A DNA stretch of 37,052 nt from a virus, in the IMG/VR virus record IMGVR_UViG_3300027976_000097, positions 1 through 37,052 of that record, one strand, 5' to 3'. How positions within the stretch are numbered: position 1 is the first letter of the stretch; each line of letters starts with the position of its first letter. The notes below the pieces were generated by a model. It was given only the letters and a program-made list of their open reading frames with translations. It was not told the DNA's origin and did not search any database. This document shows positions 31,119 through 32,744 of the stretch, piece after piece. The translations under genes were made by a program, and so were the position numbers.

Positions 31119-32744
31119 TCAACTGATGACATGGACATTATTGTTTATTCTAGAATACAGTGCAGTCAACGTTATATCCTCTTCAACCAATGTTAGTTTA
31201 CTTCGAACTCGAACCGTAGTAGTGTCTCCATCTAGACAATAGATCAGTGATAGAGACTTACCACGGCCTGTATTTTCCGTTGTAGTTGTTGCTTGAATGC
31301 GTGAGCCGTTATCGTATTCGATAGTATTTCTGTTGTAGGTAATAACACCTGCGCGAATAAAGTCAGGAAGATTTTCGTAACCAAAACGGTAGCGATCCAT
31401 GATGTCTTTTGCACCTTCATACTTGTGTGCTGCAATAAGGACCTGCGCATCATTCATAAACATTGTATACCACAGTAGGTAAACAACTGCACAGGTTGTA
31501 TTGTGTGTGGGTATTAATGTTACGCCAGCTAAAAACAAATGATCATCGTTATCTACCTGCAAACATCTTACAGGAACACTATCAACTAGGGTTATTGCTC
31601 TGATATAAATTCTTTTATTTTTAGGATGATTTTTGTTTAGTCTTTGCCTCTCTAACTTTCTAGGCATTTTAAAAACATCAAAATCAGAGGTAGTAAAACA
31701 AAGAGTATATGCATCTTTGTGAGTGGTCTTTTTACGACTCACTGTAGATTTTATACCTAATGTGCTTAGTAATAGTCTTGCCTGTGTGATAAATTTTTCG
31801 TTAGATTGATAAAATCTGCAGACTCCGTTTTTTTCTACGGTGCCGTCTGTATCCATGAGTCCTTGTAATAGGGCTATTCTAGTGTCTAAATCATTAAAGA
31901 TGTATTCATCGGGTATATGTTTATTGCCCCATAGGTCTAATTTCTTATGCTCTTTAGCACCGCCTTTAACATAAAAGGTCCCGGTGCGCTGGCTCCTGCG
32001 ATCTATAGTAAAGTGACTAACCTCTAAAGATTTTTCTGCAAAGATTTTAGTATATTCTTTATAATCTTCCATAGTACAGGTTATTCTTAGATCTTTTGAC
32101 CCGCCATCCCCTAACCACACTCCTAGATAATATGGATCTAACATTACCTCTTTAGGTTCGAATTCCAAAGCGTTAGTGTGTTTAATGTGTATGCTTTGTG
32201 ATCCTGTAGAACACAGTTGGAATCTTTCTATAAGTTTTAAGGTAGTCCCTGTTATTTCTCGCCCTAGATGCGGATCATGCCAGTTCCACAAATGTTCGGC
32301 ATCTGCTACAATTTTCTCTCCGTGTATAAATTCAATTTCATAACAAGGCCTATCAGTCATAGTTTCTGTTATAAAGGTAATTGTGGTTTGTTTACCGTCA
32401 GATCCAAAAATATTGTCGCCTACTTTTAGATCGCCCATACTAACAAATCCAGTAGGGGTTAGTATAGGAGTCGAGTTACTGAGAGCTTTTCCCATCTGTC
32501 GAGGTAACATAGCAATACATTGCTTATTCTCAATAAAGGCAGTGATCAATCTTTCTTGATATTCGTAAGGCTCGAAAGGAATTGATCCCCTTACTGGATG
32601 CTGAATCTTGATAAAGTTTTTAGCAAAATATAGTGGCCCGGTAATAGGGTCCATACATTTTTCAAGATGCGTTACTTCCTCAAGTGTGTACCTGAGTTGA
32701 ACATGTGCTTTTTTAATCAGTACCCCATCTAAACTCTTACCCAT
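31119..32744 (-). CDS. 17: terminase large subunit gp17, N-terminal part with one full intein and an N-intein
   Basis: A 541-residue product. Residues 1-86 are gp17 up to the Walker A (MLPRQMGK at 79-86). Residues 87-415 are an intein (see separate entry). Residues 416-502 continue gp17 as [14 protein letters not shown]...NGSRIQ... to SLSLIY. Residues 503-541 are an N-intein beginning [14 protein letters not shown]. After both splices gp17 is about 528 residues (86 + 87 + 355). The ATG has AAGGGAG 7 nt upstream. A 67-residue ORF overlapping its start copies its first codons (see 32737). Confidence 0.92.
31122..31238 (-). other. atypically split intein, N-terminal part (39 residues)
   Basis: The N-intein starts at Cys503 of the gene product and is only 39 residues long (usual N-inteins are about 100). 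It includes block A ([20 protein letters not shown]) but no block B; the block B strand is in the C-part. It ends at the stop codon shortly before the HNH gene. Confidence 0.85.
31500..32486 (-). other. contiguous class 3-type intein in the gp17 Walker A motif
   Basis: A 329-residue in-frame insertion between Lys86 and Thr416 of the Walker A (PRQMGK | TTCAVV). It begins with Ala, not Cys/Ser ([14 protein letters not shown]), and ends IPTHN. Class 3 markers are all present: Trp67 in block B (AEHLW), Cys308 in block F (VRCLQV) and Thr327 in block G (PTHN). Two LAGLIDADG-type motifs are present ([23 protein letters not shown]), so a homing endonuclease domain is carried. In class 3 inteins Cys at block F does the first attack. 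Confidence 0.88.

Follow-up and report, generated by a model that had tools for sequence, protein, structure and literature searches.

A class 3 intein, full-length and mobile, sits within the Walker A motif of a T4-type terminase large subunit (TerL), and the protein would be complete only after a second splicing reaction, in trans, at Walker B; this is the reading that we favor, at a probability of about 0.92, for the 37,052-nucleotide stretch of viral DNA analyzed here (IMG/VR record IMGVR_UViG_3300027976_000097; hereafter, the window). Anatomy, homology, conservation, selection, the independent presence and absence of the two inserts, and one transfer footprint in relatives directly support it, and from these we infer the chemistry, the cleavage, and the trans-splicing. 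Both nucleotide motifs of one essential ATPase are interrupted by mobile elements of different chemistry, one predicted to splice in cis and the other in trans. The interest of the locus lies in this doubly broken terminase, and in an operator-like copy of DNA beside the second break, rather than in any rarity of the intein.

A 541-aa ORF (31119..32744) matches the terminase large subunit group phrog_36964 in a PHROG search (E 3e-130), covering only the first 173 TerL residues, and the remainder of the gp17-like protein is encoded by a separate downstream ORF. The gene is laid out as follows:

32487..32744, minus strand: TerL (gp17-like) N-extein, 86 aa by translation, with the C-terminal residues LPRQMGK (Walker A Lys)
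31500..32486, minus strand: class 3 intein, 329 aa, with a LAGLIDADG endonuclease domain
31239..31499, minus strand: TerL middle extein, 87 aa, TTCAVV...SLSLIY, reaching the Walker B site
31122..31238, minus strand: N-half of a split intein (IntN) at Walker B, 39 aa, CLDGDTTT..., class 1 and atypically split; stop codon at 31119..31121
31097..31120, minus strand: GACGAGTTTGCATTCGTATAAATA, the start of the C-extein (DEFAFV) copied out of frame, plus TATAAATA; putative operator and putative late promoter
30208..31092, minus strand: free-standing HNH-like homing endonuclease gene with an ATG start, between the intein halves; conserved HxxDH...N pattern
29895..30230, minus strand: C-half of the split intein (IntC), 112 aa, last residues SHQ, opening the downstream TerL ORF
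28827..29894, minus strand: TerL C-extein, 355 aa, CDEFAFV..., with Walker B and the RNaseH nuclease (Terminase_6C)

The host protein is a T4-type terminase large subunit, and the intein lies between the Walker A Lys and Thr (MGK/TT; here and below, a slash marks the point of insertion). Its removal joins ...LPRQMGK to TTCAVVY... and leaves a normal Walker A motif. Translation of 31500..32486 gives 329 stop-free residues, from Ala1 to a terminal Asn329 with Thr+1 next, and the span, residues, and numbering originally predicted for the insertion are exact to the base. The residues on which the class assignment turns are these:

32343..32345, minus strand: Cys48 of the intein, nearly invariant in homologues
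32286..32288, minus strand: Trp67, block B position 12, after Asp62-x-x-His65 (HLW from residue 65)
31563..31565, minus strand: Cys308, block F position 4, the predicted first nucleophile (VRCLQV from residue 306)
31500..31511, minus strand: PTHN of block G, from residue 326 (Thr327, His328, Asn329), followed by Thr+1

Class 3 inteins are marked by a Trp at B:12, a Cys at F:4, and a Thr at G:5 (PMC5222942), and W67, C308, and T327 occupy precisely these positions. Position 1 offers no Cys or Ser nucleophile (Ala1), block B reads D62-A-E-H65 (DxxH rather than TxxH), and the element ends in a penultimate H328 and terminal N329 before Thr+1. The best sequence matches in the PDB are the class 3 DnaB1 inteins 6rix (E 7e-27), 6riy, and 6bs8, with E-values ranging to 3.5e-26 (phmmer), whereas the class 1 gp41-1 intein is matched far more weakly (E 0.002). 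Over two aligned stretches, C48, D62, H65, W67, PVRC, and PTHN line up with the DnaB1 mini-inteins, placing the block B Trp and block F Cys in register with known class 3 inteins, the alignment that had been suggested as a check. Across 41 homologues (30-78% identity), W67, C308, T327, H328, and N329 are invariant; position 1 is Ala in at least 90% of them and Ser or Pro in a few, a variability that fits a nucleophile located elsewhere than at position 1. In the relatives carrying Ser1 (L116, L141, and L142), this residue could possibly act as a class 1 nucleophile. An AlphaFold model of the intein (mean pLDDT 95.1, pTM 0.92) retrieves PI-SceI for the two-domain whole and the class 3 intein 6bs8 (target TM about 0.88) in Foldseek searches. 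NCBIfam and Pfam searches of the intein returned only weak or generic intein matches, so the class was settled by the PDB alignment instead. Together, the alignment, the invariance among homologues, and the fold match give good support to the predicted Trp67, Cys308, Thr327 triad, and the class 3 assignment of 31500..32486 is, on sequence and model, well supported.

The mycobacterial DnaB1 inteins (M. smegmatis DnaBi1, 6bs8; M. chimaera, 6rix/6riy) share C48, D62, H65, and W67 with the window in the same numbering, as well as the PVRC of block F, PTHN, and insertion in a P-loop before a +1 hydroxyl residue. They are mini-inteins without an endonuclease and reside in a helicase, whereas the window intein is full-length, includes a LAGLIDADG domain, and lies in a terminase. 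In M. smegmatis DnaBi1, the catalytic Cys forms its disulfide with Cys48, and given that the window intein has a Cys at this non-catalytic position, its splicing might be redox-sensitive. Published work on DnaBi1 describes Asp62-x-x-His65 with Trp67, a disulfide between the catalytic and non-catalytic Cys, and the importance of Cys48 for activity (PMC6195587).

The LAGLIDADG motifs that had been predicted are both present, with the catalytic Asp intact in each and a Pfam match to LAGLIDADG_3 (E 2.4e-11):

32100..32126, minus strand: motif 1, LGVWLGDGG from residue 121, with Asp127
31842..31868, minus strand: motif 2, LQGLMDTDG from residue 207, with Asp214

Among the 41 homologues, D127 is invariant and D214 is retained in at least 90%, and Foldseek matches to PI-SceI and I-DmoI show the two-motif pseudo-dimer fold. 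For the nuclease part, dN/dS lies at 0.06-0.23 in comparisons unsaturated at synonymous sites (0.06 for L004/L005 and 0.20 for window/L004), rough values given that several comparisons were saturated, and these point to a nuclease under purifying selection. A recent horizontal transfer of the intein has left its footprint in relatives L004 and L005, whose DNA is 94% identical in the intein, as against 65% in the upstream and 79% in the downstream extein; at third positions the figures are 87% for the intein and 42% and 55% for the upstream and downstream flanks, and identity changes at the intein edges. Vertical descent, with intein and extein diverging in parallel (78 and 80% between window and L003), was considered and set aside, given the empty sites of close sisters and the intein-only identity peak of L004/L005. 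In L006 (6001-6987), the second LAGLIDADG Asp of the class 3 intein is replaced by Val (D214V, GLMDSVG) while the rest is conserved; this nuclease is probably dead, and some intein copies may no longer home.

TerL is interrupted again 261 bp downstream of the class 3 intein, at Walker B (SLIY/CDEFAF). There, SLSLIY is followed by IntN (39 aa) and a stop, a free-standing nuclease ORF, and IntC (112 aa) joined to the TerL remainder, such that the intein halves flank an independent endonuclease gene within a broken TerL, as in fractured genes; the same order occurs at the same codon in about 40 contigs from different samples. By its arrangement, the Walker B element is a fractured gene with an atypically split intein of the AceL-TerL kind. 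Like AceL-TerL and GOS-TerL, whose IntN measure 25 and 37 aa, respectively, it combines a short IntN (25-37 aa, versus 39 in the window) with a long IntC, a Cys or Ser at position 1, and Cys+1 (PMC11766414). It differs in an IntC ending in Gln, a terminal residue inside the known variation of inteins (PMC7664689), and in sharing its TerL with a class 3 intein. Matches of the split intein in the PDB are weak and fall on consensus CatC and VidaL (6dsl, E 0.0026; 6vgv, E 0.027). The nuclease gene (30208..31092) has no match in Pfam and matches only PHROG groups of unknown function, and an Rfam search returned no match, so that the gene breaks are not explained by a known group I intron. With Walker A and Walker B both interrupted, the window terminase requires one cis and one trans splice. 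The original prediction that the terminase lacks an ATPase site without splicing is a reasonable inference but an incomplete one: because the split intein breaks Walker B, class 3 splicing alone does not suffice for a full terminase.

The Walker B element of the relative L002 (3152-3970) was compared with the window at about 29895..30690 (minus strand). The two are 98.8% identical around the block and share IntN and the nuclease N-terminus, whereas the catalytic part of the nuclease is Vsr/EDxHD-like in L002 and HNH-like in the window, and the L002 IntC ends in TKN and is only 34% identical to that of the window. This difference has the look of a modular swap.

In the splicing route that we favor, Cys308 would most likely attack the Lys(-1)-Ala1 bond, with the aid of His65 and Thr327, producing a thioester at block F, from which the chain would move to Thr+1; Asn329 would then cyclise, and MGK would be ligated to TT, rebuilding the P-loop. 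The LAGLIDADG domain would cut intein-free TerL genes at the Walker A site, leading to homing, and trans-splicing at Walker B, 87 residues further on, would complete the terminase. In a class 2 route, Thr+1 would itself attack the N-terminal junction, leaving the block F Cys a structural role only. The lack of a nucleophile at position 1 is a class 2 trait, and the signature by itself is insufficient to exclude this route (PMC5222942), yet the full WCT signature with DxxH, together with homologues of proven class 3 chemistry (Msm DnaB-1), renders it very improbable. A smaller chance still attaches to a decayed intein that neither splices nor homes, the terminase being dead or replaced by another copy; the loss of a nuclease residue in part of the family (D214V in L006) fits such decay, and another terminase could lie elsewhere in a genome represented by a 37-kb fragment, but the frame is open, every catalytic residue is intact, the TerL extein is conserved, and the splicing and nuclease domains are under purifying selection. 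Hardly credible at all is the idea that the break at Walker B involves no split intein and stems from faulty sequencing or assembly or from decay of the gene: two terminase ORFs with a third between them do resemble a damaged gene, but that arrangement recurs at one codon in the roughly 40 contigs mentioned above, and TerL of the relatives L004 and L005 runs through that point unbroken.

The class 3 intein and the Walker B element appear to move independently, as deduced from their patterns of presence and absence. Both are carried by the window, L001, L002, L003, and L006; L004 and L005 possess the class 3 intein with an empty Walker B site, L233 possesses the Walker B element with an empty Walker A site, and both sites are empty in L015 and L016, which are closely related to the window. 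A tree of 100 TerL C-exteins requires at least seven state changes for the Walker A intein and at least four for the Walker B element, counts of presence and absence among the matches listed, from which no rates can be read because the sample was similarity-ranked. The class 3 Walker A intein occurs in 7 of 29 distinct fractured TerL genes collected by their nuclease and in none of 73 TerL genes without the split element collected by their C-extein, but the two sets were sampled differently and do no more than hint at co-transfer; with 261 bp between them, the two sites could be co-converted. Close relatives with either, both, or neither element thus form a natural series for the study of competition, hitchhiking, and self-regulation among neighboring homing elements. 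Apparent gaps at Walker B seen in many distant TerL genes proved to be mostly other inserts further downstream and were left uncounted. In L330 and L331, the Walker A site is split as well (GK/CLTKEIN ... LSHN/TTCA, 1575 bp with many stops) in addition to carrying the Walker B element; the Walker A insert looks like a fractured element, which would leave TerL in three pieces.

Directly 3' of the IntN stop lies GACGAGTTTGCATTCGTATAAATA, which encodes DEFAFV in another frame and runs into TATAAATA, followed after 4 bp by the nuclease ATG. TATAAATA is the T4 late promoter consensus. Of 21 positions, the copy shares 19 with the DNA of the nearest empty site; a homing-site-like sequence overlaps a putative late promoter upstream of an endonuclease ORF, an arrangement of the I-TevI type. 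A degenerate form of the pattern was found in 42 IMG/VR contigs, in every case (42/42) between IntN and the nuclease of a fractured TerL. In a nuclease-anchored scan, for which the motif was not used in collecting the loci, about 41 of 44 usable loci (30 distinct upstream sequences) possess the copy: 36 exactly, 4 with two mismatches, and 1 with a one-base insertion, while 3 have no copy. A chance origin was rejected, as no shuffled upstream region came closer than 6 mismatches. By itself, TATAAATA shows no enrichment in the window (3 occurrences against 5 expected), and weight can therefore be placed only on its fusion to the site copy.

The simplest reading of the copy is an I-TevI-like device, a scar of nuclease entry, or both. 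In phage T4, I-TevI represses its own expression by binding an operator that resembles its homing site and overlaps its late promoter (PMC2988022). In the td intron, as in the window, homing-site-like DNA covers a late promoter (putative in the window) just upstream of the endonuclease ORF; I-TevI sits in a group I intron, whereas the window nuclease sits in a split intein. By this analogy, the nuclease would repress its own gene by binding the homing-site copy that lies over a late promoter, and a protein-splicing element would have arrived independently at the device of I-TevI; we put this at just short of even odds. That the copy is instead a passive scar, left when the nuclease gene entered the intein by collaborative homing and without regulatory function, is a serious possibility as well, itself somewhat below even odds. 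Out of frame, the copy specifies part of the C-extein, all copies occupy one place and may derive from a single event, and, were transcription to start from a late promoter, the 4-5 bp to the ATG could not accommodate a ribosome-binding site; with TATAAATA as a -10 element, transcripts would be leaderless, which counts against a simple promoter. A passive scar is harder to reconcile with DNA that is conserved though the encoded residue varies (GAG or AAG), and with a copy nearly always fused to TATAAATA within a few bases of the start codon. If autorepression holds, the copy would in addition record the route by which a free-standing nuclease gene came into the intein and fractured TerL, and a regulated nuclease would adjoin a separately mobile class 3 intein 261 bp away. 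A conserved homing-site copy over TATAAATA allows autorepression to be examined outside introns.

The intein itself had been called uncommon, a description contradicted by a scan of viral contigs with an intein alignment, which yielded at least 580 confirmed relatives. Of the top 80, the majority lie in TerL, between GK and T or S, and the predicted P-loop site (GK/TT) is confirmed, with dozens of environmental TerL genes carrying an intein there. Cultured Klebsiella jumbo phages of the RaK2 type (RaK2, K64-1, and fENko-Kae01) have an intein with a LAGLIDADG domain at the same P-loop site of the same TerL family, and the Hint and LAGLIDADG domains of the RaK2 and K64-1 terminases have already been published (PMC5259590). 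Their inteins are only moderately similar to that of the window (45-49% identity) and, unlike the window, these phages lack the split intein at Walker B. In mycobacteriophages, inteins occupy TerL1 sites a to e, with TerL1-a at the P-loop (K/T) and TerL1-e at Walker B, and TerL1-c, -d, and -e are class 3 (PMC5050341). The P-loop and Walker B sites are those of the window in another terminase family (terminase_1), and the sections drawn on here report no TerL with two inteins, in contrast to the window. The window element is accordingly one more class 3 intein from a phage, inserted at a classic P-loop position, and not a rare one; it agrees with the proposed phage origin of class 3.

Two other loci in the window carry broken or remnant genes. 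The UvsW-like helicase gene (10247..13013, minus strand) is also fractured, with a 97-aa IntN at VDE/CFDGDA, a nuclease ORF with NUMOD3 (11067..11975), and an IntC ending at VSN/CHQAK. Just upstream of TerL, a short ORF (32737..32967, minus strand) begins, from an ATG at 32941, with a sequence resembling the TerL start and continues into a NUMOD3 motif; it appears to be what is left of a nuclease, carrying a copy of the start of gene 17.
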